Part shown: positions 16,160 through 35,166 of the stretch, one piece after another
Numbering within the stretch: the first letter of the stretch is position 1
Layout of the letters: the number at the start of each line of letters is the position of its first letter
Assembly: GCF_000585375.1 (NCBI RefSeq)
Contig: NZ_KK073874.1
Span: forward strand, 868,001 to 932,000
Length of the DNA: 64,000 nt
Origin: Cryptosporangium arvum DSM 44712
GTDB lineage: Bacteria; Actinomycetota; Actinomycetes; Mycobacteriales; Cryptosporangiaceae
Reading direction: 5' to 3'
Notes under the pieces: model-generated
Seen by the model: the letters and a program-made list of their open reading frames with translations, nothing else
Told to the model about the DNA's origin: nothing
Database searches by the model: none
Translations under genes and position numbers: made by a program

Positions 16160-16335
16160 GTTGAAAGGCCATGAGCGGTGTCAGGTGGAGGAAGCCGGTG
16201 TGAATCCGGCGCGGTCCCGCCACTGTCACCGGGGAGCGAGCCTGCATCTTCAGCCACTGCATCAGCGCGGGAAGGCAGCAGGGGAGTGTCGATCCGGGAG
16301 CCAGGAGACTCCAGGTACCGCTGACCACGACCCGG
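16160..16335 (+). promoter_or_regulatory. Cobalamin riboswitch upstream of cobN
   Basis: This segment has the hallmark pieces of an AdoCbl riboswitch: the core around 16190-16226 running through GGTGTGAATCCGGCGCGGTC to CGCCACTGT (the B12 box), and a downstream GGGAGCCAGGAGACTCC at 16296-16312. AGCGGT at 16174-16179 pairs with ACCGCT at 16317-16322 as the closing P1 helix. It ends about 20 bases before the cobN start, so adenosylcobalamin should repress cobN. No equivalent is seen upstream of cobL or cobG. Confidence 0.92.
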
Positions 16336-16349
16336 GGCGCGGACCCCGA

Positions 16350-19300
16350 GTGAGGACGCCCCGCGTGATCTTGCTGCTCTCGACGTCGGACACCGACCTG
16401 CTCTCGGCCCGGGCGAGCGGAGCCTCGTACCGGCTCGCGAACCCGGCCCGGACCGGCGTCGACGACCTGCCCGGCCTCACCGACGGTGTGGACCTGGTCG
16501 TCGTCCGGATCCTCGGCGGGCGCAGGGCCTGGGAGGAAGGGCTCGACGCGCTGCTGGCCGGGCCGTTGCCGGTGATCGTGCTGGGCGGGGAGATCGCGCC
16601 GGACGCGGACCTCATGCAGCTCTCGACGGTGCCGATGGGAGCCGCGGCGGAGGCGCACGCGTACCTCGCGCAAGGCGGGGCGGCGAATCTCCAGCAGCTT
16701 CACAACTTCCTCAGCGACACCGTCCTGCTCACCGGCCTCGGCTTCGAACCCCCTGCGGAAATGCCCACCTGGGGCGTTCTGGAACGCGAATCCCGGGGCG
16801 ACGGGCCGACCATCGCGGTGCTCTACTACCGGGCCCACCACATCGCCGGGAACACCGCGTTCGTCGAAGCGCTGTCCGGCGCGATCGAGGACGCCGGTGG
16901 CCGGGCCCTGCCGATCTTCTGCGCCTCGCTGCGCACCGCGCCCGCCGAGCTGCTGACGACGCTGCGCACCGCGGACGCCCTCGTCGTCACCGTGCTCGCG
17001 GCCGGCGGCACCAAACCCGCCACGGTCAGCGCGGGCGGCGACGACGACGCCTGGGACGTGGGCGCGCTCGCCGCGCTCGACGTCCCGATCCTGCAGGGAC
17101 TCTGCCTCACCAGCAGCCGCGCCACCTGGGACGCCAACGACGACGGGCTCTCTCCGCTCGACAACGCCACCCAGGTCGCGATCCCGGAGTTCGACGGCCG
17201 GATCATCACGGTGCCGTTCTCGTTCAAGGAGATCGACGCCGACGGCCTCACCGTCTACGTCGCCGACCCCGAGCGCGCCGCCCGGGTGGCCGGCATCGCG
17301 GTCAAGCACGGCATCCTGCGCCACATCGCGCCGGAGAAGAAGCGCATCGCGCTCATGCTCAGCGCCTATCCCACCAAGCACGCCCGGGTCGGCAACGCGG
17401 TCGGCCTGGACACCCCGAAGTCCGCGGTGAAGCTCCTGCAGGCGTTGGCGGACGCCGGCTACGAGGTCGGGGACCTCCCCGGCGTCGAGGCCCAGGACGG
17501 CGACGCCCTCATCCACGCGCTGATCAAAGCCGGCGGCCACGACACCGCCTGGCTCACCGAGGAGCAGCTCGCCGCGAACCCGGTACGGATCCCCGCGGAG
17601 ACCTACAAAAAGTACTTCGACTCGCTCGACGAGAAACTCCGCGAGGCGATGGAGCGCCACTGGGGCCCGCCCCCCGGGGAGCTCTACGTCCACGAGGGAG
17701 ACATCGTGCTGGCCGCGCTGCGCGGCGAGAACGTCGTCGTGATGATCCAGCCGCCGCGCGGATTCGGCGAGAACCCGGTCGCGATCTACCACGACCCCGA
17801 CCTCCCGCCGAGCCACCACTACCTGGCCGCCTACCGCTGGCTGGCCGCCGAGTTCCACGCCGACGCCGTCGTCCACCTGGGCAAGCACGGCAACTTGGAG
17901 TGGCTGCCCGGCAAGACCGTCGGGATGTCGGCCGCCGACGGCTCCGACGCCGCGCTCGGTGACCTGCCGCTGATCTACCCGTTCCTGGTCAACGACCCGG
18001 GCGAGGGCACGCAGGCCAAGCGGCGCACGCACGCAACGCTCGTGGATCACCTGGTGCCCCCGATGGCGCGGGCCGACAGTTACGGCGACATCGCCCGGCT
18101 CGAGCAGCTGCTCGACGAACACGCGAACATCGCCGCCCTGGACCCGGCCAAGCTGCCCGCGATCCGCGCGCAGATCTGGACGCTGATCCAGGCCGCGCGC
18201 CTCGATCACGACCTGGGCCTTGACGACCGCCCGCACGACACCGAGTTCGACGACTTCCTGCTCCACGTCGACGGGTGGCTGTGCGAGGTCAAGGACGTGC
18301 AGATCCGCGACGGCCTGCACGTCCTTGGCGACGCGCCGGCCGGTGAGGCGCGGGTGAACCTCGTCCTCGCGATGCTCCGGGCCCGCCAGATGTGGGCCGG
18401 TCAGGTCGCCGCGCTTCCGGGCCTGCGCGAGGCGCTCGGCCTCTCCGAAGCCGGCGACGAGGCCCGGTCCGATGTCGACACGATCGACGCGATCGCCCGT
18501 GACCTGGTCGCCGCCATGGAGGAACGCGACTGGGACCCCACCGTCGGGGCCGAGGTCACCGCCCAGGTCCTGGACGCCACGAGCGGCGCGGCCGACGCCG
18601 ACCGGGCCCTGGTGGCACGCGTGCTCGAGTTCGCGGCCACCGAGGTCGTGCCGCGGCTGAACAAGACCACCGACGAGATGGCGCACGTGCTGCACGCCCT
18701 GAACGGCGGGTACGTGCCGGCCGGCCCGTCGGGGTCGCCGCTGCGCGGTCTGATCAACACGCTCCCGACCGGCCGGAACTTCTACTCGGTCGACCCCAAG
18801 GCCGTACCGAGCCGGCTGGCCTGGGAGACCGGATCGGCGATGGCCGACTCGCTGCTCACCCGCTACCGCGAGGACACCGGCGACTGGCCCCGCTCGGTCG
18901 GCCTGTCGATCTGGGGCACGTCGGCGATGCGCACGGCCGGCGACGACATCGCCGAGGTGCTGGCGCTGCTCGGTGTCCGCCCGGTCTGGGACGAGCAGTC
19001 CCGCCGGGTCAGCGGGCTCGAGCTCATCGCCTCCGACGAGCTCAACCGGCCCCGGATCGACGTCACGATGCGCATCAGCGGGTTCTTCCGGGATGCGTTC
19101 CCGCACGTCATCGCGATGCTCGACGACGCCGTGCAGCTGGTCGCCGCGCTCGAGGAACCCGACAACTACGTCCGCGAGCACGTCCTGGCCGACCTGGCCG
19201 GCCAGAAGAGCGAACGCCAGGCCACGATGCGGCTGTTCGGGTCCAAGCCGGGCGCGTACGGGGCCGGTCTGCTCCAGGCGATCGATTCACGGACCTGGCG

Positions 19301-19946
19301 CGACGACAAGGACCTGGCCGAGGTCTACGCGGTGTGGGGCGGTTACGCGTACGGGCGTGACCTCGACGGCGTGCCGGCCCGCCCCGACATGGAGAACGCG
19401 TACCGCCGGATCAACATCGCGGCGAAGAACGTCGACACCGCCGAGCACGACATCGCCGACTCCGACGACTACTTCCAGTACCACGGCGGGATGATCGCGA
19501 CCGTCCGGGCGCTGACCGGCCAGTCCCCGAAGGCCTACATCGGCGACAGCACGCGCCCGGACGCGGTGCGCACCCGCAGCCTGCACGAGGAGACCGCCCG
19601 GGTCTTCCGCGCCCGGGTGGTCAACCCGCGCTGGATCGAGGCGATGCGCCGCCACGGGTACAAGGGCGCGTTCGAGCTCGCCGCCACCGTCGACTACCTC
19701 TTCGGGTACGACGCCACCGCGGGCGTCGTCGCCGACTGGATGTACGAGAAGCTGGCCGCGACCTACGCGCTCGACGCGGAGAACCAGAAGTTCTTCGGTG
19801 AGTCGAACCCGTGGGCGTTGCACGCGATCACCGAGCGCCTGATCGAGGCGGCCGACCGCGGCCTCTGGGAGCACCCGGACGCCGAGACGCTGGCGGCGCT
19901 CCAGGACCTCTACCTCGCGACGGAGGGCGACCTCGAGGACGACTAG
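16350..19946 (+). CDS. cobN: Cobaltochelatase large subunit
   Basis: A 1,198-residue CobN, the porphyrin-binding subunit of the ATP-dependent aerobic cobalt chelatase that inserts cobalt into hydrogenobyrinic acid a,c-diamide. Family marks include VVHLGKHGNLEWLPGKT (about residue 508), the YPFLVNDPGEGTQAKRR stretch and LWGTSAMRT-like motifs in the C-terminal half. GTG 16350 is chosen because it follows the riboswitch directly; GTG 16365 is possible. Translation from inside the riboswitch would be an artefact. The partner AAA+ subunits are not in the window. The stop overlaps the converging small gene by four bases. Confidence 0.95.
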   Translation: MRTPRVILLLSTSDTDLLSARASGASYRLANPARTGVDDLPGLTDGVDLVVVRILGGRRAWEEGLDALLAGPLPVIVLGGEIAPDADLMQLSTVPMGAAAEAHAYLAQGGAANLQQLHNFLSDTVLLTGLGFEPPAEMPTWGVLERESRGDGPTIAVLYYRAHHIAGNTAFVEALSGAIEDAGGRALPIFCASLRTAPAELLTTLRTADALVVTVLAAGGTKPATVSAGGDDDAWDVGALAALDVPILQGLCLTSSRATWDANDDGLSPLDNATQVAIPEFDGRIITVPFSFKEIDADGLTVYVADPERAARVAGIAVKHGILRHIAPEKKRIALMLSAYPTKHARVGNAVGLDTPKSAVKLLQALADAGYEVGDLPGVEAQDGDALIHALIKAGGHDTAWLTEEQLAANPVRIPAETYKKYFDSLDEKLREAMERHWGPPPGELYVHEGDIVLAALRGENVVVMIQPPRGFGENPVAIYHDPDLPPSHHYLAAYRWLAAEFHADAVVHLGKHGNLEWLPGKTVGMSAADGSDAALGDLPLIYPFLVNDPGEGTQAKRRTHATLVDHLVPPMARADSYGDIARLEQLLDEHANIAALDPAKLPAIRAQIWTLIQAARLDHDLGLDDRPHDTEFDDFLLHVDGWLCEVKDVQIRDGLHVLGDAPAGEARVNLVLAMLRARQMWAGQVAALPGLREALGLSEAGDEARSDVDTIDAIARDLVAAMEERDWDPTVGAEVTAQVLDATSGAADADRALVARVLEFAATEVVPRLNKTTDEMAHVLHALNGGYVPAGPSGSPLRGLINTLPTGRNFYSVDPKAVPSRLAWETGSAMADSLLTRYREDTGDWPRSVGLSIWGTSAMRTAGDDIAEVLALLGVRPVWDEQSRRVSGLELIASDELNRPRIDVTMRISGFFRDAFPHVIAMLDDAVQLVAALEEPDNYVREHVLADLAGQKSERQATMRLFGSKPGAYGAGLLQAIDSRTWRDDKDLAEVYAVWGGYAYGRDLDGVPARPDMENAYRRINIAAKNVDTAEHDIADSDDYFQYHGGMIATVRALTGQSPKAYIGDSTRPDAVRTRSLHEETARVFRARVVNPRWIEAMRRHGYKGAFELAATVDYLFGYDATAGVVADWMYEKLAATYALDAENQKFFGESNPWALHAITERLIEAADRGLWEHPDAETLAALQDLYLATEGDLEDD

Positions 19947-20405: not shown

Positions 20406-21578
20406 GTGGTCCTGGAACCCGCCGAGATCTGGGCCTATCTGATCGGGCGCGGATCGGTCCCGGCGACCGCCACCGGCACCGTGCGTGAGGTCGGCGACGG
20501 CAACATGAACCGCGTCTTCGTGGCGGTTCCCGACGACCCCGCGATCCCGAGCGTGGCCGTGAAGCAGGCCCCGCCGTGGATCCAGAAGCTCGGCCCGTCC
20601 GCGCCGATGAGCCCCGAGCGGGCGCTCATCGAAGCGAGGGCGCTACGCACGTTCGCCGAGTACGCGCCCAGGCAGACCCCCGCCGTCCGGGACGTCGACG
20701 AGACCCGGTTCGCGTTCACGATGGAGGACCTCTCCGACCTCACCGTGCTGCGTACCGCGCTCAACGACGGTGCCGAGATCGGCCGGACGTCAGCGGAGGT
20801 GGGCGAGCTCGTCGGGCGGGTCACGTTCGCGACCAGCGTCGCCGGCGCCGACCCCCGGGTGCGTGCCGCGCTGATCCAGGAGTCGGTGAACCCGCTGCTC
20901 GCCGAGGTCACGCTGCAGTACCTGCTGGGTGACCCGTTCGTCGAGGCCGAGCACAACCACCACCACCCGGCGCTCGAGGACGGGGTGAAGCGGCTGCGTG
21001 CCGACCCCGCCGTCCGCACCGAACTCGCCGCGATCCGCGCCGCGTTCGGCGCCAAGGCCCAGGCGCTCGTCCACGGCGACCTGCACAGCGGCAGCGTCAT
21101 GGTCGGCGTCCGCGACGGTGAACCGGTCGTGCGCGTTATCGACCCCGAGTTCGCGATGGTCGGTCCGATCGGCCTCGACCTCGGTCTCTACGTCGCCAAC
21201 CTCGTCATCGCGTCCGTACGCAGCCGGAACGCCGCCCACCTGGCGAGCATCGCCGAGTGCTGGGACGCGTTCTGCGCCGCCTGGCGCGAGGGCTGGCCCA
21301 CCCGCGTCGACAGGCTGCTCGACGACGGCTGGCTCCTGCGTGAGCTCCGCGACGTCTGGCACGACACGCTCGGGTTCGCCGCCGTCGAGCTGGTGCGCCG
21401 GGTCGCCGGCTACTCGCACGCGTCCGACCTCGAGACGCTGCCCGACCCCGGCCCGGCCTCCGCGCTCGTGCTCGACCTCGGCCACAAGCTGCTCGTCGAC
21501 CGCGAGATCTGCGGCCGCCGCCCGGATCCCCGCGCGCTCGCGCACCTCGTCAGCACCTCCTGGGAGGCCCGGCAGTGA
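20406..21578 (+). CDS. mtnK: 5-methylthioribose kinase
   Basis: A 390-residue protein-kinase-fold enzyme that phosphorylates methylthioribose in the methionine salvage pathway. The REVGDGNMNRVF ATP-binding loop sits near residue 29. The catalytic loop HGDLHSGS has Asp225, and the metal-binding Asp246 lies in DPEFAMVGPIGLDLG. GTG 20406 has a good AAGGAG site seven bases upstream. Its stop overlaps the next ATG, starting the coupled operon mtnK-mtnA-mtnC-mtnB. A second MtnK-like gene lies at 28285-29493. Confidence 0.93.
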   Translation: MVLEPAEIWAYLIGRGSVPATATGTVREVGDGNMNRVFVAVPDDPAIPSVAVKQAPPWIQKLGPSAPMSPERALIEARALRTFAEYAPRQTPAVRDVDETRFAFTMEDLSDLTVLRTALNDGAEIGRTSAEVGELVGRVTFATSVAGADPRVRAALIQESVNPLLAEVTLQYLLGDPFVEAEHNHHHPALEDGVKRLRADPAVRTELAAIRAAFGAKAQALVHGDLHSGSVMVGVRDGEPVVRVIDPEFAMVGPIGLDLGLYVANLVIASVRSRNAAHLASIAECWDAFCAAWREGWPTRVDRLLDDGWLLRELRDVWHDTLGFAAVELVRRVAGYSHASDLETLPDPGPASALVLDLGHKLLVDREICGRRPDPRALAHLVSTSWEARQ

Positions 21579-22603
21579 GGCCCGTCCTCGACGACAGCGT
21601 CCGCCTGACCGACGAGGGCGTACTGATCCTCGACCGTCGCGTCTTCCCCGCGCGCGAGGAGTGGGTGCTGACCCGCACCGCGGGCGAGGTCGCGGTCGCG
21701 ATCCGCGCGATGGTGACGCAGAGTTCGGGCCCGTTCTACGCCGGGCTGGCCGGGCTGCGCCTGAGCGCCCGCCTCCACCGGGGCGACGGTCTCGACACCG
21801 CTCTCCAGGCGCTGGCCGACGACGGCGAGCTGCTCACCGCCGCGCGGCCCACGAACAACCACGTCCGCGACGCCGTCCGCGAGGTGCTCGACGCCGTGGG
21901 CGCCGCCGGATCGGCCGACGAACTGGCCGAACTGGTCGAGGCCGAGACCGCCCGGTTGGAGGCCGCCTACCGGGGCGGCAGCGCCGAGCTGGGCCGGCTC
22001 ACCACCGAGCTGATCCCCGACGGCGCCCGGGTGATGACCCATTGCTGGATGGACGCGTACCTGATCGGGCTGGTGCAGCAGGCCGAGCTGGCCGGGCGCA
22101 AGTACGAGTGGGTCGTCACCGAGACGCGCCCCTACCTGCAGGGCGCCCGGCTCACCGCGCACACGCTGGCCGAGATGGGGCAGCCGCTGACGCTCATCAC
22201 CGACTCGACGGCGGCGTCGGTGCTCGCCGGTCAGGGCGCGCTCGGGTCGGTCGACGCGCTCGTCACCGCGGCCGACCGGGTGACGATGGACGGCCACGTC
22301 ATCAACAAGGTCGGCACGCTGTCGCACGCGGTGGCGGCGTCGGCGTTCGAGGTGCCGTTCTACGCGCTGGTGCTGGCCCCCGACCGCACCGCCGCGACCG
22401 CGTCCGACGTCGTGATCGAGGAGCGCGACGGCGCGGAGGTGCTGTCGACGCTCGGCTCGCGCACCGCGTCCGCCCTGGTCGAACGCGGCTACTACCCGGC
22501 ATTCGACGTCACGCCGCCGGAGTTCGTGCGGCGGATCGTCACCGACCGAGGCGTTTTCGAGCCGGCCAGGGTCGGCGAGTACCACGAAAGGCAGAACCGA
22601 TGA
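21575..22603 (+). CDS. mtnA: Methylthioribose-1-phosphate isomerase (divergent MtnA)
   Basis: A 342-residue member of the eIF2B-alpha/MtnA sugar-phosphate isomerase family. It has the AARPTNNH substrate motif, ETRPYLQGARLT, ITDSTAASVL and NKVGTL. Catalytic Cys157 (MTHCWMD) and Asp234 (AADRV) line up with the Cys/Asp pair of known MtnA. The usual HCNAG sequence is replaced by HCWMD, so it is a divergent branch. It converts the MtnK product to methylthioribulose-1-phosphate, the substrate of MtnB encoded downstream. The ATG overlaps the mtnK stop (ATGA-type coupling). Confidence 0.88.
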   Translation: MRPVLDDSVRLTDEGVLILDRRVFPAREEWVLTRTAGEVAVAIRAMVTQSSGPFYAGLAGLRLSARLHRGDGLDTALQALADDGELLTAARPTNNHVRDAVREVLDAVGAAGSADELAELVEAETARLEAAYRGGSAELGRLTTELIPDGARVMTHCWMDAYLIGLVQQAELAGRKYEWVVTETRPYLQGARLTAHTLAEMGQPLTLITDSTAASVLAGQGALGSVDALVTAADRVTMDGHVINKVGTLSHAVAASAFEVPFYALVLAPDRTAATASDVVIEERDGAEVLSTLGSRTASALVERGYYPAFDVTPPEFVRRIVTDRGVFEPARVGEYHERQNR

Positions 22604-23313
22604 CTCACACCGCACGCGTGGTCGTCCTCGACATCGAGGGCACGACCAGCGCGGCCGGGTTCGTGCAGGGCGACCTGTACGACTACGCCCGGCCGCGCCT
22701 CCGCTCGTGGATCGCCGACCACGCCGACGACCCGGCGATCGTCTCCGCCGTGGCCGACACCAGGGCCGAGGGCGGGCTGGCCGACGACGCCGACCTGGAC
22801 GCGGTCGTCGCGGTGTTGCACGGCTGGATGGACACCGACGTCAAAGCGACGCCGCTCAAGACGATCCAGGGGCAGCTCTGGGCGGCCGGGTTCGCCGCCG
22901 GTGAGCTGCGCTCGCACTTCTTCGCCGACGTCGTCCCGCGCCTGCGTGAATGGCACGAGCGCGGTCTGCGGCTGGTGTCGTTCTCCTCGGGGTCGATCGC
23001 CAGCCAGGTGCCCTGGTACCGGCACGCCGACGCCGGCGACCTCACGCCGCTGATCGAGGACTACTTCGACACGGTCAAGGCCGGCAGCAAGCGCGAGGTG
23101 AGCTCGTACGAGAAGATCGCGTCCGCACTCGGCGTCGCCGGTGACGACACGTTGTTCCTGACCGATCTGCCCGCCGAGCTGGACGCGGCCGCCGCCGCCG
23201 GGTGGCAGGTGATCGGCGTCCGCCGTGAGGGCGAGCCGAACTACGCCGCCGACTTCGGCGACCACCCGGTCGTCTCCTCGTTCGACGAGGTCGACGTGCG
23301 GGCCCGGGCATGA
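22600..23313 (+). CDS. mtnC: Enolase-phosphatase E1
   Basis: A 237-residue HAD-family enzyme that enolises and dephosphorylates 2,3-diketo-5-methylthiopentyl-1-phosphate to an acireductone. The nucleophile motif is VVLDIEGTT at residues 8-16, the second motif is SFSSGS near residue 128, and the third is FLTDLPAELDAA with its Lys upstream (KAGSKRE). The MtnC-specific IQGQLWAAGF is present. The ATG overlaps the mtnA stop and the stop overlaps the mtnB start. Confidence 0.94.
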   Translation: MTHTARVVVLDIEGTTSAAGFVQGDLYDYARPRLRSWIADHADDPAIVSAVADTRAEGGLADDADLDAVVAVLHGWMDTDVKATPLKTIQGQLWAAGFAAGELRSHFFADVVPRLREWHERGLRLVSFSSGSIASQVPWYRHADAGDLTPLIEDYFDTVKAGSKREVSSYEKIASALGVAGDDTLFLTDLPAELDAAAAAGWQVIGVRREGEPNYAADFGDHPVVSSFDEVDVRARA

Positions 23314-23948
23314 CCGGGCCGGATTACCGCACCGACTTCCGGGGCGTGCTCGAGGGCGCGGGGACGGCGCTGGCGGCGGAGTCGGCCCGGTTCGCCGGCA
23401 TCGGCTGGATGCGTGGGACGTCGGGCAACCTCTCGATCGTCCTCAACCGCGACCCGCTGCGCCTGGCCGTGACCGTCAGCGGCCTCGACAAAGGCGAACT
23501 GACGAGCGCCGACGTCGTCGTGGTCGACGAGCTGGGCCGCGCGGTGGCCGAACAGCCCCGCCCCGACCTGATCCCGTCCGCCGAGGCCGAACTGCACGCC
23601 CGGGTGGCGCAGCTCTCGGGCGCCGGCGCGGTGGTGCACGTCCACGCGCTGCAGGCCGTGCTCGCCGGGCACTGGTGGCCCGGCGGCATCGAGCTGCGTG
23701 ACCTGGAGATGCTCAAGGGCATCGGCCGGCTCGCCCACGACGAGACCGTCACGATCCCGGTCGTGCCGAACTCCCAGGACATGAAGGTGCTCGGCGACGA
23801 CGTCGCGAAGGTGTTCGACCCCGCGGTTCCGGCCGTTGTCGTCGCCCGCCACGGCATGTACGCGTGGGGTCGCGACCTGCTCCAGGCCCGTCACCACACC
23901 GAGATCGTCGAGTTCCTGCTGCAGTTCACGGTCGAGACACGCGGCTGA
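23310..23948 (+). CDS. mtnB: Methylthioribulose-1-phosphate dehydratase
   Basis: A 212-residue class-II-aldolase-fold dehydratase. Zinc ligands are in the VHVHAL motif (near residue 111) and in the C-terminal RHGMYAWG...RHHTE region. GWMRGTSGNLS near the N-terminus is a family mark. It acts between MtnA and MtnC. The last gene of the operon, it runs 23 bases into the converging regulator gene. The following pathway enzyme, MtnD, is encoded 9.4 kb away. Confidence 0.93.
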   Translation: MTGPDYRTDFRGVLEGAGTALAAESARFAGIGWMRGTSGNLSIVLNRDPLRLAVTVSGLDKGELTSADVVVVDELGRAVAEQPRPDLIPSAEAELHARVAQLSGAGAVVHVHALQAVLAGHWWPGGIELRDLEMLKGIGRLAHDETVTIPVVPNSQDMKVLGDDVAKVFDPAVPAVVVARHGMYAWGRDLLQARHHTEIVEFLLQFTVETRG

Positions 23949-27412: not shown

Positions 27413-28297
27413 GTGTTTTTTGTCACCGGTGCCTCCGGAGGGATCGCGGGCGGCGTCGTGCCTGCGCTCGTGGAGGCGGGCCACGAGGTCGTCGGTCTGG
27501 TCCGGTCGGACGAGGGCGAGGCGAAGGTCAAGGCCTACGGCGCCGAGACGCGGCGGGGCGCTCTGGACGACCTCGACAGCCTGCGTGCCGGGGCCGAGGA
27601 CGCCGACGGGGTCGTCCACCTCGCCTACAACCACAGCGACTTCGCCGCCGCGGGCGCGCTGGAGCGGGCCGCGATCCAGACGTTCATGGACGTCCTCGAA
27701 GGCACCGGCAAGCCGTTCCTGTTCGCGTCCGGCGTCGCGCTGCACGAGCCGGGGGAGGTGCTCACCGAGGACGACCCGAGCCCGTTCTCCGGCCCGGAGG
27801 GCCACCGCGGGGGTGGCGAACAACTCGCGCTGAGCTACGCCGAACGCGGTGTCCGAGCCGTCTCGCTGCGCTTCCCGCCCACCGTGCACTACACCGGTGA
27901 CCACGGGTTCGTCGCCCACCTCGCCCGGGTGGCCCGCGAGCGGGGCGCCTCGGCCTACGTGGGCGACGGCGCCAACCACTGGTCGGCGGTCCACCGCGAC
28001 GACGCGGCGACGGCCGTCGTGCTCGCGCTGGAGAAGTCCGCGCCCGGTGCCGCGGTCCACGCGGTGGCCGAGCCGGGCATCCCCACCCGGGAGCTGGCCG
28101 AGGAGATCGGTCGTCAGCTGGGTGTACCGACCGAGTCGGTCTCACCCGAGGAGGCGCTGGCCCGTTTCGGCTTCGTCGGGATGGCGCTGGCCACCGACTT
28201 CCAGGCGTCGAGCACGCTCACCCGCAGGCGTCTCGGCTGGGAACCCACCGGCCCCACGCTGTTCGACGACCTCCGCGCCGGTCACTACACGCCCTGA
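27413..28297 (+). CDS. NAD-dependent epimerase/dehydratase-like protein
   Basis: A 294-residue extended-SDR protein, cofactor motif VTGASGGIAGGV at the N-terminus, acting on an unknown substrate. The expected opening MRVFVTGASG is split. ATG 27409 with a good GGGAG ribosome site is in a different frame because a T-run has six Ts where five would fit. The usable in-frame start is GTG 27413. Either GTG is used, or slippage or a sequencing error at the T-run is involved. The 3' end overlaps the converging mtnK-like gene by 13 bases. It is divergent from, and probably repressed by, the TetR gene. Confidence 0.82.
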   Translation: MFFVTGASGGIAGGVVPALVEAGHEVVGLVRSDEGEAKVKAYGAETRRGALDDLDSLRAGAEDADGVVHLAYNHSDFAAAGALERAAIQTFMDVLEGTGKPFLFASGVALHEPGEVLTEDDPSPFSGPEGHRGGGEQLALSYAERGVRAVSLRFPPTVHYTGDHGFVAHLARVARERGASAYVGDGANHWSAVHRDDAATAVVLALEKSAPGAAVHAVAEPGIPTRELAEEIGRQLGVPTESVSPEEALARFGFVGMALATDFQASSTLTRRRLGWEPTGPTLFDDLRAGHYTP

Positions 28298-29493
28298 CTC
28301 AGCCCGAGTGGCTCGGAGGTGAGGTCGGCCAGGACGTCGGGGTCGGGGCGGCCGTGGAGGGTGTGGGTGATGAGCACGCGGGACGCGCGCAGGGCTCGGC
28401 GGGCGGCCTGCACCCGCTGGTCCTCGGGCAGCGTCTCGATGTCGGCGACCTTCGCGAACCCGATCACGCGGCGCGCGACCTCGGCCCCGGCGTAGGTGAC
28501 CGCGTCGGTCCACACCTGCGTCAGCAACGACTCCAGAACCGCGTCCCCGTAGACGCGCGGATCCTGCCGGGACGGCCACCGGTCGCGGTAGGTCCGCTCG
28601 AACGAACCCCAGGTGACCCGCCCGAGCCCGAGCAGACGCCGGGCCCGGGAGTCCTGGCCCTGGGCCACCGCGCGGGCCGCGGCCAGCACGTAGTTGGCCC
28701 ACAGCATGCCGAGGTCGAAGCCGAGCGGCCCGTAGAAACCGAACTCCGAGTCGAACGCCCGCACCGACGGGTCGTCCCCGAACCGCACGAACACCGACCC
28801 GGTGTGCAGGTCACCGTGGAGCAGCGACTCCGCCCTGGTCATGAACGCGAACTTGGCCCGGCCGGCCGCGTGCTTCACGTCCGGGTCCCCGGCGAGCTCG
28901 GCCACGTCCGCCTCGTTCGACGGGTGCACGACGTTGTGGTCGTGGTCGACGAACGGCTCGGTGAGGACCAGGTCCTCGGTGATCTCGCACAGCTCGGGGT
29001 TGATCGCCCTGGCCACGGCCTGTTTGTGGGCCGCCGAGCCCACGCCGAACACCGAGGTGCCGAAGCCGACGTTCGCGATGTACTCGCCCAGCGCGGCTGC
29101 GGCCAGCTCGTCGTCGTCGGTGGCTTCGGTGCGCTCGTTGAGCACGGTGCGCCAGACCCGGTGATCGGAGAGGTCCTCGATCGCGAGCACGTACCGCGTC
29201 TCGTCGTAGAAGAGCAGGCCGGGGACGTGAGCCGGGTCGATGGCCTGGTGGGAGGCGAGCACGTACGCCTCGCGCGAGGAGCGCTCACGTGTCATCGGCC
29301 AGCTGGGGTCGGTGCGCACGTACGGCAGCGACTGCTTCAACACCAGCGAGCCGGCGCTGCCCTCCACGATGAACACCAGGTTGAGGTTGCCGTCGCCGAC
29401 CTCCCGGACCTGCGAGACCGTGCCCACCCGGGACGCCAGGTCCGGCAGCGAGGCGACGTAGTCCGGCACCGACTCGACGTCGAGAAGATCCAT
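28285..29493 (-). CDS. mtnK: Second methylthioribose-kinase-like protein
   Basis: A 402-residue MtnK homologue. REVGDGNLNLVF near residue 30 is the ATP loop, HGDLHTGSVF the catalytic loop and FDSEFGFYGPLGFDLG the metal-binding segment. MtnK-type features include WPMTRERSSREAY and DHDHNVVHPSN. It is the last gene after a ribose-type ABC importer, with a nine-base gap, so it probably phosphorylates the imported sugar. This context favours methylthioribose or a related thio- or deoxy-ribose. It differs clearly from the MtnK at 20406-21578, so it is not a recent duplicate. Confidence 0.9.
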   Translation of the reverse strand: MDLLDVESVPDYVASLPDLASRVGTVSQVREVGDGNLNLVFIVEGSAGSLVLKQSLPYVRTDPSWPMTRERSSREAYVLASHQAIDPAHVPGLLFYDETRYVLAIEDLSDHRVWRTVLNERTEATDDDELAAAALGEYIANVGFGTSVFGVGSAAHKQAVARAINPELCEITEDLVLTEPFVDHDHNVVHPSNEADVAELAGDPDVKHAAGRAKFAFMTRAESLLHGDLHTGSVFVRFGDDPSVRAFDSEFGFYGPLGFDLGMLWANYVLAAARAVAQGQDSRARRLLGLGRVTWGSFERTYRDRWPSRQDPRVYGDAVLESLLTQVWTDAVTYAGAEVARRVIGFAKVADIETLPEDQRVQAARRALRASRVLITHTLHGRPDPDVLADLTSEPLGLSQGV

Positions 29494-29501
29494 GAACCCA
29501 C

Positions 29502-30566
29502 CTAGGTCGGCTGGCCGGGAAGCGTCGCCCGGCGGGTGGACAACGTGTAGCTGAACAGCAGCGCGACCAACAGCACCGCGCCCTTCGCGACGTCCTGCAC
29601 GTAGTACGGCAGGCCCTTCATGCTGAAGCCGACGACCATCACGGTCACCAGCAGGGCGCCGAGCACGGTACCCCAGGCGTTCGGCACGTTCCGCCCGAGC
29701 ACCGACGTGCCCACCAGCGCGACCGCGACCGCGTCGAGCAGCAGCGAGTTGCCCGCCGAGACGTCGCCCTGGCCGATCCGCGCCGCGAGCAGCAGACCGG
29801 CCACCGAGGCGAGCACGCCGGCGGCGACGTAGGCGGCGCTGCGGTAGAGACCGACCCGGACACCGGCCAGCCGCGAGGCCTCCGGGTTGGCGCCGACCGC
29901 GTACAGCAGGCGGCCCCAGCGCGTCCGCTCGAGCAGGAACCAGACCAGCACCGAGATGACGATCAGCAGGATCGCCGGGAACGGCACCGGGCCGATCTTG
30001 CCCTGGGCGAGGTAGAGGAAGCCGTCGGTGAAGCGCCCCGGCGCGGTCGAACCGTCGTCGAGCGTCATCCGCGACGAGATCGACTTGCCGTCGACGAGGA
30101 CGAGTTTCAGGCCCATGATCGCGAACATCGTGGTCAGCGTCGCGAGCAGGTCGGGGATGCGGGCCCAGACGATCAGGGCTGCGTTGATCAGGCCGATCAC
30201 TCCACCGGCGATCAGCACGACGACGATCGCGACGCCGCCGACCTGGTTGCCGATGACCATCGTCCAGGCGGCGAGCGAGACCGCGAAGCCGGCGGTGCTG
30301 CCGACGCTCAGGTCGAGGCCGCCGACGGTCATCGCGATCGTGACGCCGAGCCCGGCGATGCCGACCGGGGCGGCGTAGACGAGCAGGCCCCAGAGGTTGG
30401 AGCTGGTGCGGAAGTTCGGTTCGCTGATCAGGAAGTAGGCCACCAGCAGGACGGTGACCGCGACGAAGCCGTAGCGGACGACGGCTTCGCGGAAAGAGAC
30501 GATGGTGGAGCTCTTCTCGACCGGAGCCGGAGACGGTTGCTCGGCTCGAGACTGCGTACTGCTCAC
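29502..30566 (-). CDS. Ribose-type ABC transporter permease
   Basis: A 354-residue membrane protein of the RbsC family. It has eight to ten hydrophobic segments, the GGLDLSVGSTAGF motif after the third helix and the RTRWGRLLYAVGANPEASRLAGV loop typical of this family. It pairs with the ATPase whose 3' end overlaps its start (30563-30566). It is followed by the second mtnK-like gene, suggesting an uptake route for methylthioribose or a similar ribose derivative. Confidence 0.9.
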   Translation of the reverse strand: MSSTQSRAEQPSPAPVEKSSTIVSFREAVVRYGFVAVTVLLVAYFLISEPNFRTSSNLWGLLVYAAPVGIAGLGVTIAMTVGGLDLSVGSTAGFAVSLAAWTMVIGNQVGGVAIVVVLIAGGVIGLINAALIVWARIPDLLATLTTMFAIMGLKLVLVDGKSISSRMTLDDGSTAPGRFTDGFLYLAQGKIGPVPFPAILLIVISVLVWFLLERTRWGRLLYAVGANPEASRLAGVRVGLYRSAAYVAAGVLASVAGLLLAARIGQGDVSAGNSLLLDAVAVALVGTSVLGRNVPNAWGTVLGALLVTVMVVGFSMKGLPYYVQDVAKGAVLLVALLFSYTLSTRRATLPGQPT

Positions 30567-32137
30567 TGCGCGACCTCTCCGGAAAAGGCGCGCACGACGT
30601 CGTCGCGGCTGACCTGTGAAAGGGGGGAGTCGAGGGTCAGCGCGCCCTCGACCAGAACGAGAACGCGGTCGGCGACCTCCAGCACCTCGTCGACGTCGGC
30701 GGAGAGCACCACGACCGCTCCGCCGGCGTTCGCGACCGCGCGGACCTGCTCGCCGATGTCGCGCCGGGCGCCGAGGTCGACGCCGCGGAAGGGCTCGTCG
30801 AGGAGCAGCAGCCGGGCGTTCTCGACCAGCCAGCGGCCGACGACGACCTTCTGCTGGTTGCCGCCGGAGAGCTCGTTGAGCTCGGTGCGGGGGCCGCGGG
30901 CGACGATGCCGAGCTTCTCGATGACGGTGGTCGCGCGGTCGCGTTCGGTGCCCTGGTTGAGGACGCCGACGCGGCTGGCGACCTTGGTGATGAACGGGAG
31001 GCTCAACGTGCGCTGGATCGACCAGCCGGGGAGCAGTGCCTGGTCGGCTCGGTCCTCCGGGACCAGGTAGACGCCGCTGCGGATCGCCTCCGCGGGCGAA
31101 CGCGGAGCGCGGGCCAGGTCGGCGAAGTCGGCGGTTCCGGCCGGCCAGCGCGCGGAGCCGAACAGCCCGTGCGCGAGTTCGGACTTCCCGGCCCCGATCA
31201 GCCCGACGATCCCGGTGACTTCGCCCCCGTTGAGGCTCAGGTCGAGCTCGGGGCTCTCCGCGAACAACCGCACGCCGCTCAGGCGCACCACCGAGGTGGT
31301 GGACGAGGAAGCCGCGTCGTCGGTGGTGGGGCGGTCGTGGTCGAGGACCGTGGCGCGCAGGCCCTCGGCGCTGTCGCCGAGCATGGCGGGCAGGATCACC
31401 GGCCAGCTGAGCGGCTTGGCGACGTCGGCGGTGACGCGCCCGTCACGCAGCACGACCGCGCGGTCGGCGATCGCGTCCACCTCGCCGAGCCGGTGGCTGA
31501 CCAGTAACACCGCGAGCCCGTCGGCACGCAGCTGACGCACGACCCCGAACAGCCGGTCGGACTCCGCGGACGACAGCGCCGACGTCGGCTCGTCGAGGAT
31601 CAGCAGTTTCGGGCGCTGCAGCAGCGTGCGCGCGACCACCAGCAGCTGGGCGTCGGAGATGCCGAGCGTCGCCACGTCGCGGCGCAGCACGGCGTCGGAC
31701 CAGCCGAGGTCGAGCACCTCGACCGCGCGGCGCGCGACCTCCAGCACCTCCCGGCGCCGCAGCGCCCACGACGCGCCGCCGCCGGCGAGCTCGTCGAACG
31801 CGAGGTTCTCCGCGACCGTCAGACCGGGCACGACCCCCTCGCGTACCCGCTGGTGCACGGTCGCGATTCCCCGGGCCCGCGCCTCGGTCGGCGACGCCAG
31901 CCGCACCGGCTCGCCGTCGACGAGGATCTCGCCGGTGTGATCGGGGTGCGCGCCGGCCAGGATCTTGATCAGCGTCGACTTGCCGGCGCCGTTCGCCCCG
32001 AGCAGCGCGACGACTTCACCGCCGACGATCTCCAGGTCGACGCCGCGCAGGACGACGTTCGGACCGAACGACTTGCCGACGCCCCGCACCGAAACCGTGG
32101 TGGTCCCGGTGTGCGGCGTCGATACAGGCGAGCTCAT
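30563..32137 (-). CDS. Ribose-type ABC transporter ATP-binding protein
   Basis: A 524-residue RbsA-type tandem ATPase. The first nucleotide-binding domain has LLGANGAGKSTLIK (about residue 45) and its signature reads LGISDAQLLVVARTL, a degenerate version. The second has the altered Walker A GLIGAGKSELAHGL and the intact signature LSGGNQQKVVVGRWL, as usual for this family. It energises the permease encoded immediately downstream. Start and stop overlaps place it in one operon with the binding protein, permease and kinase. Confidence 0.92.
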   Translation of the reverse strand: MSSPVSTPHTGTTTVSVRGVGKSFGPNVVLRGVDLEIVGGEVVALLGANGAGKSTLIKILAGAHPDHTGEILVDGEPVRLASPTEARARGIATVHQRVREGVVPGLTVAENLAFDELAGGGASWALRRREVLEVARRAVEVLDLGWSDAVLRRDVATLGISDAQLLVVARTLLQRPKLLILDEPTSALSSAESDRLFGVVRQLRADGLAVLLVSHRLGEVDAIADRAVVLRDGRVTADVAKPLSWPVILPAMLGDSAEGLRATVLDHDRPTTDDAASSSTTSVVRLSGVRLFAESPELDLSLNGGEVTGIVGLIGAGKSELAHGLFGSARWPAGTADFADLARAPRSPAEAIRSGVYLVPEDRADQALLPGWSIQRTLSLPFITKVASRVGVLNQGTERDRATTVIEKLGIVARGPRTELNELSGGNQQKVVVGRWLVENARLLLLDEPFRGVDLGARRDIGEQVRAVANAGGAVVVLSADVDEVLEVADRVLVLVEGALTLDSPLSQVSRDDVVRAFSGEVAQ

Positions 32138-32152
32138 TGTTTCTCTTGGTTA

Positions 32153-33271
32153 CTAGGCGGCGTTCGGCAGCCAGTCTGCCACCGACACGGTGTCCAGCTT
32201 CAGCTTCGGTTCGGCCTTCACGACGTCACCCACCGTGGTGATGCTCTTCTCCTTGAGCACCTGCTGAGTGATCAGCACGCCGGGGAACTGCACCGACGAC
32301 TCGTTGAACTGACCGGCGAGCTTCAGCGAGATCGTCCGCACCACCGCGGCGCCGATCTGGCCCGGGTCGGTCGCGGCGGTGGCCACCCACGGGCTGCCCG
32401 CGGCGGTCATGACCTCGAGGTCGGCGTTCGAGATGTCGATGCCGTAGACCTTCACCTTGTCCTGCAGGTTGTTCTGCTTCACGGCCTGGACGACACCCTT
32501 GGTGATCTCGTCGTAGGGCGCGAAGATCGCCTTGACGTCGGGGTGCTGCTTGAGCGCCGCGTCGACGAGCGGGATGTTGTCGGTCGCGGTCGACTCGGTG
32601 ACCTTGCCGGTGAAGAACACCTGCTGGAGCTTGTTGTCGGCGACGACCTTCTTCCAGACCTGGCCGCGCCGGTCGAGCGGGGCGAAGCCGGTGGCCGAGA
32701 CCAGGCCGACCTTCTGGTTCTGGCCGATGTCCTTGACCATCTGGTCGAGCACGGCCTGCGCCAGGCTCTCGTCGGACTGGCTGGTGTTGATGTATCCGGT
32801 GACGTCGGCGGGCAGCGCGACGTCGTAGACGATCGTCGGGATGCCGGCGGCGACGGCCTTCTTCACCAGCGGGGCGATCGTGTCGGTCTGGCCGTGGTCG
32901 ACGATGATCGCCGCCGGCTTCGAGTCGATCGCCTGCTGCAGGTCGGAGGCCTGCTTGGCGTTGTCGTTGCGCGCGTCGGTGACGGTCAGCTTGATGTTGG
33001 CCGCGGCCGCCTGCTTCTGGGCGCCCTGACCCCAGGCTTCGAAGTAGTCGCCCGCGCCACTCTGCCGGACGAGAGCTACCGTTACCGGGTCGGCGTTGAA
33101 AGGGCTGGGGAGCGGCGCACTGGCCGTCGGGCCGGTGGACGGCGAGGACGAAGCGTCACTCTCCGTCGAGTCGCTCTGCGAGCAGGAGGCGACGGCGAGC
33201 AGCGTGGCGAGCGCGCTGGTCGCGAAGAGCACGGTCCGGCGCGGACGCCGGGCAAGGGTCGTGATGGGCAC
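32153..33271 (-). CDS. Ribose-type substrate-binding lipoprotein
   Basis: A 372-residue periplasmic-binding-protein-family receptor. The signal ends in LLAVASC, making Cys30 the lipid anchor, followed by a Ser/Asp-rich linker. Sequences such as VALVRQSGAGDYFEAWGQG and AIIVDHGQTD show the type I sugar-binding fold. It is the first gene of the importer operon and diverges from mtnD across an 87-base gap. The start is GTG 33271. The ligand is inferred from the kinase and mtnD neighbours. Confidence 0.88.
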   Translation of the reverse strand: MPITTLARRPRRTVLFATSALATLLAVASCSQSDSTESDASSSPSTGPTASAPLPSPFNADPVTVALVRQSGAGDYFEAWGQGAQKQAAAANIKLTVTDARNDNAKQASDLQQAIDSKPAAIIVDHGQTDTIAPLVKKAVAAGIPTIVYDVALPADVTGYINTSQSDESLAQAVLDQMVKDIGQNQKVGLVSATGFAPLDRRGQVWKKVVADNKLQQVFFTGKVTESTATDNIPLVDAALKQHPDVKAIFAPYDEITKGVVQAVKQNNLQDKVKVYGIDISNADLEVMTAAGSPWVATAATDPGQIGAAVVRTISLKLAGQFNESSVQFPGVLITQQVLKEKSITTVGDVVKAEPKLKLDTVSVADWLPNAA

Positions 33272-33279
33272 GTGTTAGA

Positions 33280-33333
33280 GCATGCACCTGACCAGGAATA
33301 ACTCCTAGCGGCGGGGTAGGAATCCCAGCATGC
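33280..33333. promoter_or_regulatory. Divergent control region with paired GCATGC palindromes
   Basis: The gap between the importer operon and mtnD holds GCATGC at 33280-33285 and again at 33328-33333, and between them an inverted pair TCCTA (33303-33307) and TAGGA (33317-33321). The symmetric arrangement suggests a shared operator or promoter region for both directions. The binding protein is unknown. Confidence 0.4.
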
Positions 33334-33358
33334 GGAACGCAGCAAGGTGGAGGTTGTC

Positions 33359-33931
33359 ATGACATTACTGACTGTTTGGGCCGACGATTCGCCGTCCGAG
33401 CCGGAGCTGCGTACCGAGGAGCCGTCGGAGATCGCGGCCGTCCTGAAGGAACACGGCGTCCGGTACGAGCAGTGGCCGCTTGTGGATCTTTCGGACGATT
33501 CGACCAACGAGGAGGTTCTGGCTGCGTACCAGGACCGAATCGACGCGGTGAAAAAAACCGAGGGTTACATCCTGGTCGACGTCGTGCAGATGCGTCCGAG
33601 CGACGACCCGTCGTGGCCCGAGCTGGTGCGCACGTCGCGGGAGAAGTTCCTCAACGAGCACACCCACGACGACGACGAGGACCGGTTCTTCGCGTCCGGC
33701 TCCGGCATCTTCTACCTGCACGTCGGGGGCAAGGTGCACGCGGTGTTCTGCGAGGCCGGCGACCTGCTGTCGGTGCCGGGTGGCACCACGCACTGGTTCG
33801 ACATGGGCACGAACCCGGAGTACAAGTCGGTCCGGTTCTTCCACGACGAGGACGGCTGGGTCGGCAACTTCACCGGCAGCGCGATCTCGTCGAACTTCCC
33901 GACGTACGACGAGATCGCCGCCACCCGCTAG
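33359..33931 (+). CDS. mtnD: Acireductone dioxygenase
   Basis: A 190-residue cupin. The metal ligands of this family are visible as His101, His103 and Glu107 (EHTHDDDED) and His145 (GGTTHWFDMG). It oxidises the acireductone made by MtnC to the keto acid precursor of methionine, or to an off-pathway product depending on the metal. ATG 33359 is chosen because AGGTGGAGG ends five bases before it; an in-frame GTG at 33347 lies inside that ribosome site. It completes the salvage pathway begun by the mtnKACB operon 9.4 kb away. The stop overlaps the converging flavoprotein gene by four bases. Confidence 0.92.
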   Translation: MTLLTVWADDSPSEPELRTEEPSEIAAVLKEHGVRYEQWPLVDLSDDSTNEEVLAAYQDRIDAVKKTEGYILVDVVQMRPSDDPSWPELVRTSREKFLNEHTHDDDEDRFFASGSGIFYLHVGGKVHAVFCEAGDLLSVPGGTTHWFDMGTNPEYKSVRFFHDEDGWVGNFTGSAISSNFPTYDEIAATR

Positions 33932-35151
33932 CTGTAGCCGGACGGTTCGGGGTAGGCGCCACGAAGCAGGTGGTCGCCTACCTCGATCGCTTTGTGGGAC
34001 ACCGGGTCGTGCAGCGTGAGCGTCCGGACGTCCCGCCAGTAACGATCGAGGCCGGTGCCGGTCTTGGTGGCGCGGGCGCCGGTGAGCTCGAACACACCCT
34101 GGGTGGCGTCGAGCGCGGCCCGGGTGGTGACGACCTTCACCGCGGAGAGCTCCACCGACACCTCGCCGCGCTCGGCGTGGGTCAGCTCCCAGCCCCGGGA
34201 GGCCGCCGCCATCCACGCCGCTCCGGCCCGGTCGGTGAGCGCCCTCGCGGCCCGCACCTGCGACTCCAGTTCGCCGTACCGCACCCGCACCAGCGGGTCG
34301 TCGGCCGCCTCGGCGACCCCCGAGGTCGCCCACGCGCGTGACTTCGTCCGGGTGTACTCCGCCGCGAAGCGCAGCGCGCCCTCGGCGGTGGCCACCGCCA
34401 GCAGCCCGAGCAGGATCTGGAAGCCGAGCGCCGACAGGCTGGGATAGGCCGGGGCGTCCGGGTCGGTCTGCTCGCCCGGCCCCAGGATGTCCTCCTCGGC
34501 GAGGAACGCGCCGTCGAATGCGATCGATCCCGACGCCGACGCACGCTGGCCGAGCGAATCCCAGTCCTCGCCGTGCACGACGCCCGCGGTGCGCGTCGGC
34601 AGCGCGAAGCCGTACTTCTGGCCGGTCACGGTGTCGGTACCGGACGCGATCACTCGGTCGGACACCTCGGCGCCGGTCGCGAAGAACTTCTTCCCCCGCA
34701 CCAGGTAGCCCCCGGACGTCGGCTCGAGCTCCAGACCGGCGTCGCGCGGGTTGCCCGCGCCGCCCCACAGCCAGTTGTTCGCGGCGGTCTCGGTGGCCAG
34801 CCGCTCGACGACGTCGAGGCGCCGCGCCAGCCGGGTGCGCCAGTTGTGCAGGTAGTGGTAGCCGAGCACGTGCCCGATCGACGTGTCGGCCCGGCCGACG
34901 CGCGTGACCACCTCGAACGCGGTCAGCCAGCTCCCACCGTGGCCGCCGTTGCGGGCGGGGATCAGCAGCGGCAGCAGGCCGGCGTCGCGCAGCAGCTCCA
35001 CCTCTTTGTGCGGCGCGGCACCGGAGCGGTCACGGGCGACGACGTCGGAGCTGAGCTGTGCGGCGACCCGGTCGGCGACGGCGACCCAGCGGGCGTGCTC
35101 GGCCGGGTCCGGCCGGTCGGTGGCGGTGTCCGGGTGTTGCGGGTCTGTCAT
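33928..35151 (-). CDS. Acyl-CoA-dehydrogenase-fold flavin enzyme, DszC/SfnC-like
   Basis: A 407-residue protein of the acyl-CoA dehydrogenase superfamily. The N-terminal helices (PLLIPARNGGHGG), middle beta domain and C-terminal segment HDPVSHKAIEVGDHLLRG are closest to DszC/SfnC-type FMN monooxygenases of sulfur compounds. The catalytic Glu of true acyl-CoA dehydrogenases is not evident. Standing beside mtnD, a role in organosulfur use fits but is inferred. ATG 35151 is chosen; GTG 35166 would add five residues and abut the next gene's stop. A related acyl-CoA dehydrogenase function cannot be excluded. Confidence 0.82.
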   Translation of the reverse strand: MTDPQHPDTATDRPDPAEHARWVAVADRVAAQLSSDVVARDRSGAAPHKEVELLRDAGLLPLLIPARNGGHGGSWLTAFEVVTRVGRADTSIGHVLGYHYLHNWRTRLARRLDVVERLATETAANNWLWGGAGNPRDAGLELEPTSGGYLVRGKKFFATGAEVSDRVIASGTDTVTGQKYGFALPTRTAGVVHGEDWDSLGQRASASGSIAFDGAFLAEEDILGPGEQTDPDAPAYPSLSALGFQILLGLLAVATAEGALRFAAEYTRTKSRAWATSGVAEAADDPLVRVRYGELESQVRAARALTDRAGAAWMAAASRGWELTHAERGEVSVELSAVKVVTTRAALDATQGVFELTGARATKTGTGLDRYWRDVRTLTLHDPVSHKAIEVGDHLLRGAYPEPSGYS

Positions 35152-35166
35152 GGGCCGAAGTATCAC

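Follow-up and report, generated by a model that had tools for sequence, protein, structure and literature searches.

A candidate ABC importer for 5-methylthioribose encoded with its own kinase beside mtnD in Cryptosporangium arvum

Cryptosporangium arvum DSM 44712 (9.2 Mb, a single contig) carries, in a 64,000-nucleotide (nt) stretch of NZ_KK073874.1 that we call the window, a three-part ATP-binding cassette (ABC) sugar importer whose operon ends in a methylthioribose kinase gene and diverges from mtnD, a gene of methionine salvage. What does this importer carry, and what would a kinase of its own serve for, with a salvage operon and another kinase close by? With good confidence, we read the locus as a predicted ABC importer for 5-methylthioribose (MTR) that is coupled to its own kinase, probably for sulfur scavenging.

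The importer-kinase-mtnD unit and its predicted ligand

The operon is transcribed from the minus strand and encodes, in this order, a sugar-binding lipoprotein (32153-33271; GTG start, PF13407, lipobox VASC, 4ry8/MtrB-like), a double-domain ATPase of the RbsA/AraG type (30563-32137; two PF00005 stretches), a ribose-type BPD_transp_2 permease (29502-30566; PF02653, 128.3 bits) and a predicted S-methyl-5-thioribose kinase, MtnK2 (28285-29493; TIGR01767, 354.6 bits against a cut-off of 275). The intergenic gaps of 15, -4 and 8 nt, the ATPase and permease genes overlapping by 4 nt, suggest a single operon. On the plus strand, mtnD (33360-33931) encodes an acireductone dioxygenase (PF03079, 96.6 bits against a gathering cut-off of 27; no NCBIfam model matched at E ≤ 0.001) and is the sole PF03079 match in the genome. 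We preferred ATG 33360 to GTG 33347 as its start, because GGAGG stands before the ATG; the divergent starts are then 88 nt apart, and the promoter region between them (33272-33359) contains the inverted repeat TTCCTA-N9-TAGGAG. All five genes are intact, and the importer operon with an MtnK-like kinase diverging from mtnD is as the initial annotation had described it.

A sequence search of the PDB with the binding protein ranked 4ry8 first (E 2.7e-50), followed by 5ulb (3.8e-37) and the ribose-type subunit 3l49 (6.1e-17); the E. coli ribose-binding protein gave 1.1e-15. A profile built from eight relatives widened the gap (7.3e-79 for 4ry8, 1.3e-51 for 5ulb, 3.2e-22 for the next entry). Entry 4ry8 is titled '5-methylthioribose transporter solute binding protein TLET_1677' and comes from Thermotoga lettingae. 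We then compared a structure model of the binding protein (mean predicted local distance difference test score, pLDDT, 82.9; residues 3-49 below 50) with known folds. Foldseek placed 4ry8 first (1.1e-27), with 5ulb near (4.8e-26) and the third hit at 7.9e-20; in VIA-align, 4ry8 reached a Z of 38.9 with a root-mean-square deviation of 2.3 over 312 residues, 5ulb 36.7 and the rest at most 31.9. Over the mature protein, TLET_1677, from another phylum, is therefore the closest relative by both sequence and fold. NCBIfam gives the importer no name: the sugar-importer models listed for the three parts are all far below cut-off, including AraG, the best model for the ATPase (356.3 bits against 689), and all 12 models listed for the permease. 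The initial annotation had proposed methylthioribose as the ligand, and this reading is supported by the 4ry8 match, the neighbouring mtn genes, the MtnK2 motifs, the host enzymes and the sulfur-linked neighbours described below. On these sequence-based grounds, the gene set very probably imports MTR and recycles it to methionine.

An ABC transporter for MTR, mtrACB with mtrY, is predicted in Bacillus cereus and enterobacteria according to PMC3228920. Like that transporter, the window importer is of the ribose type, has three parts and is predicted to supply methionine salvage; it fits the MtrACB type on three counts: a binding protein of the MTR kind, a ribose-type ATPase and permease in the unit, and linkage to salvage genes. 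Enterobacterial proteins match the window binding protein at 31-34.5% identity, and 5ulb, from Yersinia enterocolitica, groups with plasmid proteins of Erwinia and Rahnella in a quick binding-protein tree of 102 rows. In the Erwinia and Rahnella stretches (L141, L142), an LVIVD-repeat or hypothetical gene takes the place of mtrY; the Erwinia binding-protein gene has an oxidoreductase gene before it and an LVIVD-repeat gene after it, an order that fits the ybdH-mtrB-mtrY set described in PMC3228920. The window unit differs in that it has a kinase inside the operon and a divergent mtnD, without an mtrY-like gene. Bacillus subtilis MtrA (YfnA), which is not known to be an ABC importer, resembles the window importer in its proposed role of MTR uptake. 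MTR influx through MtrA has been authenticated by experiment according to PMC5743806. MTR ABC importers have thus been predicted already; what is new here is a compact, repeatedly conserved importer-kinase-mtnD unit. Among the matches listed, no title or abstract dealt with MTR import in actinobacteria, with a unit of kinase, importer and mtnD or with salvage by import only, most subscription journals lying outside the search.

The initial annotation had suggested a search for the same neighbours in other genomes. Relatives of the binding protein were collected by a scan of genome contigs, and the best 80 of 112 confirmed relatives were analysed as loci; they span at least Microbacteriaceae, Geodermatophilaceae, Jiangellaceae, Nocardiaceae and Streptomycetaceae. 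The order binding protein-ATPase-permease was found in 78 of the 80 loci, both misses (L049, L066) being contig ends. The kinase follows the permease in 77, the misses being these two contig ends and one real case (L040), and a divergent mtnD lies within 700 nt of the binding-protein match in 76; here two misses are real (L047, L081), one is a contig end (L083) and one fails by 3 nt of distance only (L086). Seventy loci contain mtnA, mtnB, mtnC and mtnD in the fetched stretch; on the divergent side, the Streptomyces loci have mtnD together with mtnC and mtnB. The five-gene arrangement also recurs in all three other Cryptosporangium genomes; the binding protein is absent from G004, the one examined family member from another genus. 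Its recurrence in the genus and in most of the 80 loci indicated that the arrangement is not due to chance.

Two kinases and the source of methylthioribose

The salvage operon lies about 4 kb from the importer operon on the plus strand and comprises mtnK1 (20406-21578, with a start at about GTG 20406; TIGR01767, 292.7 bits against 275), mtnA for methylthioribose-1-phosphate isomerase (21575-22603; PF01008, 162.5 bits), mtnC for acireductone synthase, the enolase-phosphatase (22600-23313; TIGR01691, 210.6 bits against 128.1), and mtnB for methylthioribulose-1-phosphate dehydratase (23310-23948; TIGR03328, 174 bits against 137.05). MtnA is below cut-off in both of its models (PRK05720, 244.6 against 271; TIGR00512, 185.5 against 279). 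The operon has its own MtnK and no mtnD, in agreement with the initial annotation; because the genome has a single PF03079 gene, both operons must share mtnD if the pathway runs. TIGR01767 has exactly two matches genome-wide, MtnK1 and MtnK2. The importer kinase had been called the second MtnK, which stands as a count; as a rank it does not, since MtnK2 is the more canonical of the two (354.6 against 292.7 bits).

MTR kinases carry a GXGNXN loop, a W-loop whose Trp caps the methylthio group, HGD, DXE followed by Phe, and an RR pair, according to PMC2194712. All of these motifs are present in MtnK2, which looks like an orthodox MTR kinase by its sequence. MtnK1 retains every motif except the W-loop Trp, which is replaced by Ala; among the kinases aligned, Ala occurs here elsewhere only in non-importer kinases of Trujillonella and Blastococcus. 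With this substitution, MtnK1 (20406-21578) may have room for larger 5-alkylthio groups. Some relatives deviate in the G-loop, whose first Gly is Ser in the 48 importer-linked kinases of the Streptomyces group and Thr in 12 of 16 other kinases of the Microbacteriaceae and Geodermatophilaceae loci. In a quick tree of 2olc and 64 kinases, chosen by hand from 103, the importer-linked kinases fell into two groups, one of the window type and one of a Streptomyces/Nocardia type that groups with MtnK1. That the importer accompanies MTR kinases from either group argues for a common substrate.

We further surveyed 33 hand-picked cluster genomes, drawn from 25 of the 80 loci plus 8 further genomes; 30 of them are of the salvage type, the other three being of the dihydroxyacetone phosphate (DHAP) type. 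In 19 of the 30, no MTR kinase occurs besides the importer-linked one (placements hand-checked against the loci; other matches below 43 bits), indicating that the latter is not an odd second copy.

We then asked which enzymes could supply MTR inside the cell from methylthioadenosine (MTA). The host has an MTA phosphorylase (PRK07823, 431.2 bits against 306), and none of its four PF01048 genes is over the cut-off for the MTA nucleosidase MtnN. The other PF01048 genes encode a purine nucleoside phosphorylase, a futalosine hydrolase (186.6 against 124.7), whose gene adjoins one that we take to be MqnD-like, and a divergent nucleosidase-like protein, whose gene (L010 1489-2313) has a presumably Nudix-type neighbour. 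An MTA phosphorylase can replace the nucleosidase and the kinase according to PMC3228920. Since the host phosphorylase bypasses MtnK and no MtnN is over cut-off, MtnK has no obvious internal substrate; that two kinases are kept despite the phosphorylase suggests external MTR.

Across the 33 cluster genomes, MTA phosphorylase is over cut-off in 17 (the four Cryptosporangium genomes and 13 of the Streptomyces/Nocardia group) and MtnN in one, Cryobacterium G305, whose importer lacks a kinase. Once Cryptosporangium and the Streptomyces/Nocardia group are set aside, 13 salvage genomes remain, and by these two models 12 of them had appeared to lack an internal MTR source; a PF01048 search of 16 genomes, Streptomyces not among them, cut this claim to five. 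Each of the five (Trujillonella G252, Herbiconiux G299, Agreia G300, Naasia G301 and Glaciihabitans G304) has a single PF01048 match, a purine nucleoside phosphorylase (PRK08202 over cut-off in all five). No MTA-cleaving enzyme was therefore recognised in these five genomes with importer, kinase and salvage pathway, as judged by the MTA phosphorylase, MtnN and PF01048 models, other nucleosidase superfamilies being unsearched. Elsewhere the extra PF01048 genes were a small nucleosidase-like gene (L129; PRK05634, 122.1 against 129), uridine-phosphorylase-like genes (L128, L113, L132) and a DeoD gene over cut-off (L106), a classification that left out L109, L111, L112, L133, L134 and some short matches.

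Together, these data are consistent with the following route. The lipoprotein, given its kinship with 4ry8, would capture extracellular MTR; the permease and ATPase, by family, would carry it inward; and MtnK2, by family and motifs, would phosphorylate it to MTR-1-phosphate. MtnA, MtnB and MtnC from the neighbouring operon, together with MtnD, would then convert MTR-1-phosphate to ketomethylthiobutyrate, from which an aminotransferase would make methionine; both of these steps are established pathway chemistry. The importer probably serves to scavenge sulfur from MTR that other organisms release, because the host's own MTA should enter via MTA phosphorylase, bypassing MtnK. MTR is excreted by bacteria without a salvage pathway, such as E. 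coli, according to PMC3228920.

Sulfur-linked neighbours and upstream sequences

Downstream of mtnD, and convergent with it, lies a gene for a flavin monooxygenase of the acyl-CoA dehydrogenase fold (33928-35166, minus strand; the ends overlap by 4 nt), a possible accessory part of the unit. By its scores it is a relative of SfnB (TIGR04022, 227.6 against 430.9) and DszC (NF043015, 258.6 against 850), below both cut-offs, and not a member of either family. A homologue is convergent with mtnD in the three genus loci and in 19 of the 80 others, at a distance of at most 340 nt in 13 of the 19 and as far as 5.3 kb away in the other six. The fetched stretches of the remaining 61 loci, among which are all 49 of the Streptomyces group, yielded no homologue.

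Relatives of the binding protein were also found on plasmids (218 records), and 11 stretches were read: 8 annotated ones from alphaproteobacteria and Burkholderia, the two enterobacterial ones above and an unannotated one (L148). SfnB, SfnG or MsuE genes are near the binding-protein gene in five of the eight (L138, L139, L140, L144, L147); of the rest, L143 has an acyl-CoA-dehydrogenase-family gene only, L146 (Sinorhizobium meliloti) has mtnK-mtnA, and L145 has neither. The neighbours in the five stretches are sulfur-acquisition genes of the SfnB, SfnG, MsuE or LLM type, with no mtn gene listed, and the ligand of these five binding proteins may be a different organosulfur sugar. The missing mtn genes count for little as evidence, because the gene tables of the plasmid collection are incomplete.

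In the Streptomyces group, a conserved frame of 23 residues with Cys-Arg at its end precedes the importer operon. A strict pattern found it in 46 of 49 loci and a looser look added L085 and the Nocardia locus L081, L083 being a contig end; searched on both strands of 88 loci, the looser pattern gave 48 matches, all lying upstream of the binding-protein match and no further than 700 nt from it. The leader of these loci (L056 and 47 more of the Streptomyces group) resembles NF042934, and its commonest form is MKTLLLVRRLYVDLLRSTTASCR. Against this 'putative leader peptide' model the Streptomyces peptide scored 25.1 bits (cut-off 27), with all 19 model positions aligned. Leader peptides with cysteine codons are known ahead of cys operons in other Actinobacteria (PMC1262725), and by analogy the Streptomyces leader may sense cysteine. 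The sulfur monooxygenase neighbours and this cysteine-containing leader point to sulfur scavenging. Upstream frames containing CPELCC were seen in Geodermatophilaceae, at L020 and L031 (one sequence) and at L038; the frames at L031 9744 and L038 9734 have a common C-terminal half in two genera and are a possible cysteine attenuator.

The arms of the inverted repeat TTCCTA-N9-TAGGAG are identical in all four Cryptosporangium genomes, and the repeat has one match in the window where 0.01 is expected; it may act as an operator. Both the repeat and the 16-nt core TAGGAATCCCAGCATG occur once in the window, and neither lies by the mtnK1 operon.

Alternative ligands and the scope of the proposal

Several observations weigh against the proposal of an MTR importer. 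Identity to 4ry8 is only about 33%, the ligand of 4ry8 is known here from the entry title alone, and MTR binding and uptake by the window importer are what we infer from sequence. The binding protein is rare, being present in at least 8 of 298 genomes of the order and at least 3 of 396 of the phylum; the window genome is counted in both, and since about 5-6 candidates were scored per genome the true numbers may be higher. Jiangella (L047) and Nocardia aurantia (L081) have the importer and kinase with no mtnD within the 10-kb flanks. The divergent nucleosidase-like gene of the host is just below the MtnN cut-off (67.3 against 73.8). A conserved cysteine leader was not seen in Cryptosporangium: a screen for Cys within the last 12 residues gave frames with Cys codons at L017 and L018 and none at the window or L016. 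The mtrACB relatives have MetJ boxes or a SAM (S-adenosylmethionine) riboswitch according to PMC3228920, whereas no SAM riboswitch was found in the window by Rfam at gathering scores; in seven related loci the single Rfam hit, a Streptomyces-metH RNA, lay at the far end of L056, and no SAM riboswitch appeared.

Further contrary evidence comes from loci that suggest 5-deoxyribose. In this unlikely alternative, the importer takes 5-deoxyribose or 5-deoxypentoses, and MtnK2 begins their disposal via the DHAP shunt. 5-Deoxyribose is a by-product of radical SAM enzymes and contains no sulfur. It is the main rival because three loci from other families of the order pair the same importer family with mtnA-mtnK in an apparent DHAP shunt. 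There, the importer lies between mtnA and mtnK, with no mtnB, mtnC or mtnD match in the stretch (L021 5101-13468, L022 2359-11608, L023 7917-14899), and these loci look like a DHAP shunt fed by the window's importer family. L021 contains a FucA-like class II aldolase gene, below all cut-offs listed, and a PRK08324-type bifunctional aldolase/dehydrogenase gene (930.8 bits against 831) stands by the L022 kinase; genes near the L021 importer are presumably GntR- and DeoD-like. The MtnK2 group is sister to the L021-L023 kinases in the quick tree (support 92). Elsewhere in the host genome lie at least two genes for FucA-like class II aldolases (L149, best 118.2 against 300; L150, best 160.6 against 300), besides an epimerase-type one (L151, 325.5 against 251). 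The L149 gene (1501-2007; contig positions 1202787-1203293) lies about 8 kb from the host MTA phosphorylase gene, where a possible MTA-fed DHAP shunt may be encoded. Disposal clusters with predicted sugar transporters are described in PMC6079011, and they share with the window an MtnK-like kinase, an MtnA-like isomerase and a sugar transporter; those clusters end in a class II aldolase, whereas the window unit stands with mtnB, mtnC and mtnD. At E ≤ 1e-5, the four genome matches of the L021 aldolase (27-34% identity) all lie outside the window, and the only aldolase-family gene by its kinases is MtnB, over its own cut-off. Moreover, the unit is joined to mtnD, which has no part in the DHAP shunt, and adjoins mtnA-mtnC-mtnB, and the neighbours and leaders of its relatives are linked to sulfur, which 5-deoxyribose lacks. 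Nothing ties a possible DHAP shunt in the host genome to the importer.

We consider it very unlikely that the importer carries some other sulfur-containing sugar or nucleoside (MTA, ethylthioribose or the sulfoxide or sulfone of MTR, for example) on which the DszC/SfnB-like monooxygenase acts. The convergence of this gene with mtnD in the genus and 19 other loci would fit such a ligand, as would the Rhizobium, Agrobacterium, Phyllobacterium and Burkholderia binding proteins beside SfnB, SfnG or MsuE, and the change in MtnK1 of the W-loop residue by which the 5-substituent is limited. However, 4ry8 is titled as an MTR protein, MtnK2 retains the W-loop Trp, and most loci, with the whole Streptomyces group, showed no monooxygenase gene in the fetched stretches. 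An importer for ordinary ribose or another pentose that lies beside the salvage genes by chance is extremely improbable: Pfam places the parts in ribose-type families, but the RbsB, RbsA and ribose permease models were far from being reached (66 against 337, 279.5 against 745 and 138.1 against 398 bits), the linkage to mtn genes is conserved across families, and the fold ranking puts 4ry8 first. Ribose as the ligand was rejected on these scores and because ribose-binding folds rank far below 4ry8.

With MTR as the probable ligand, we tentatively propose, short of an even balance of confidence, that salvage in some Actinobacteria is import-fed scavenging, in which MTR given off by other microbes or by plants is taken up, phosphorylated by the importer's kinase and used as a sulfur source, and not recycling of the cell's own MTA, cysteine-attenuated in Streptomyces and with a DszC/SfnB-like arm in some lineages. 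The five genomes with pathway and importer and no recognised MTA-cleaving enzyme would be its pure form. If this is true, a genome with mtnK, mtnA, mtnB, mtnC and mtnD could no longer be assumed, as is usual, to recycle its own MTA. The recurrent unit in several actinobacterial families suggests MTR as a traded sulfur compound of communities, and a named gene set is now available for testing such trade.

The one Rfam hit in the window, a cobalamin riboswitch (16188-16311), precedes a gene that we take to be CobN-like (region 16188-19946).

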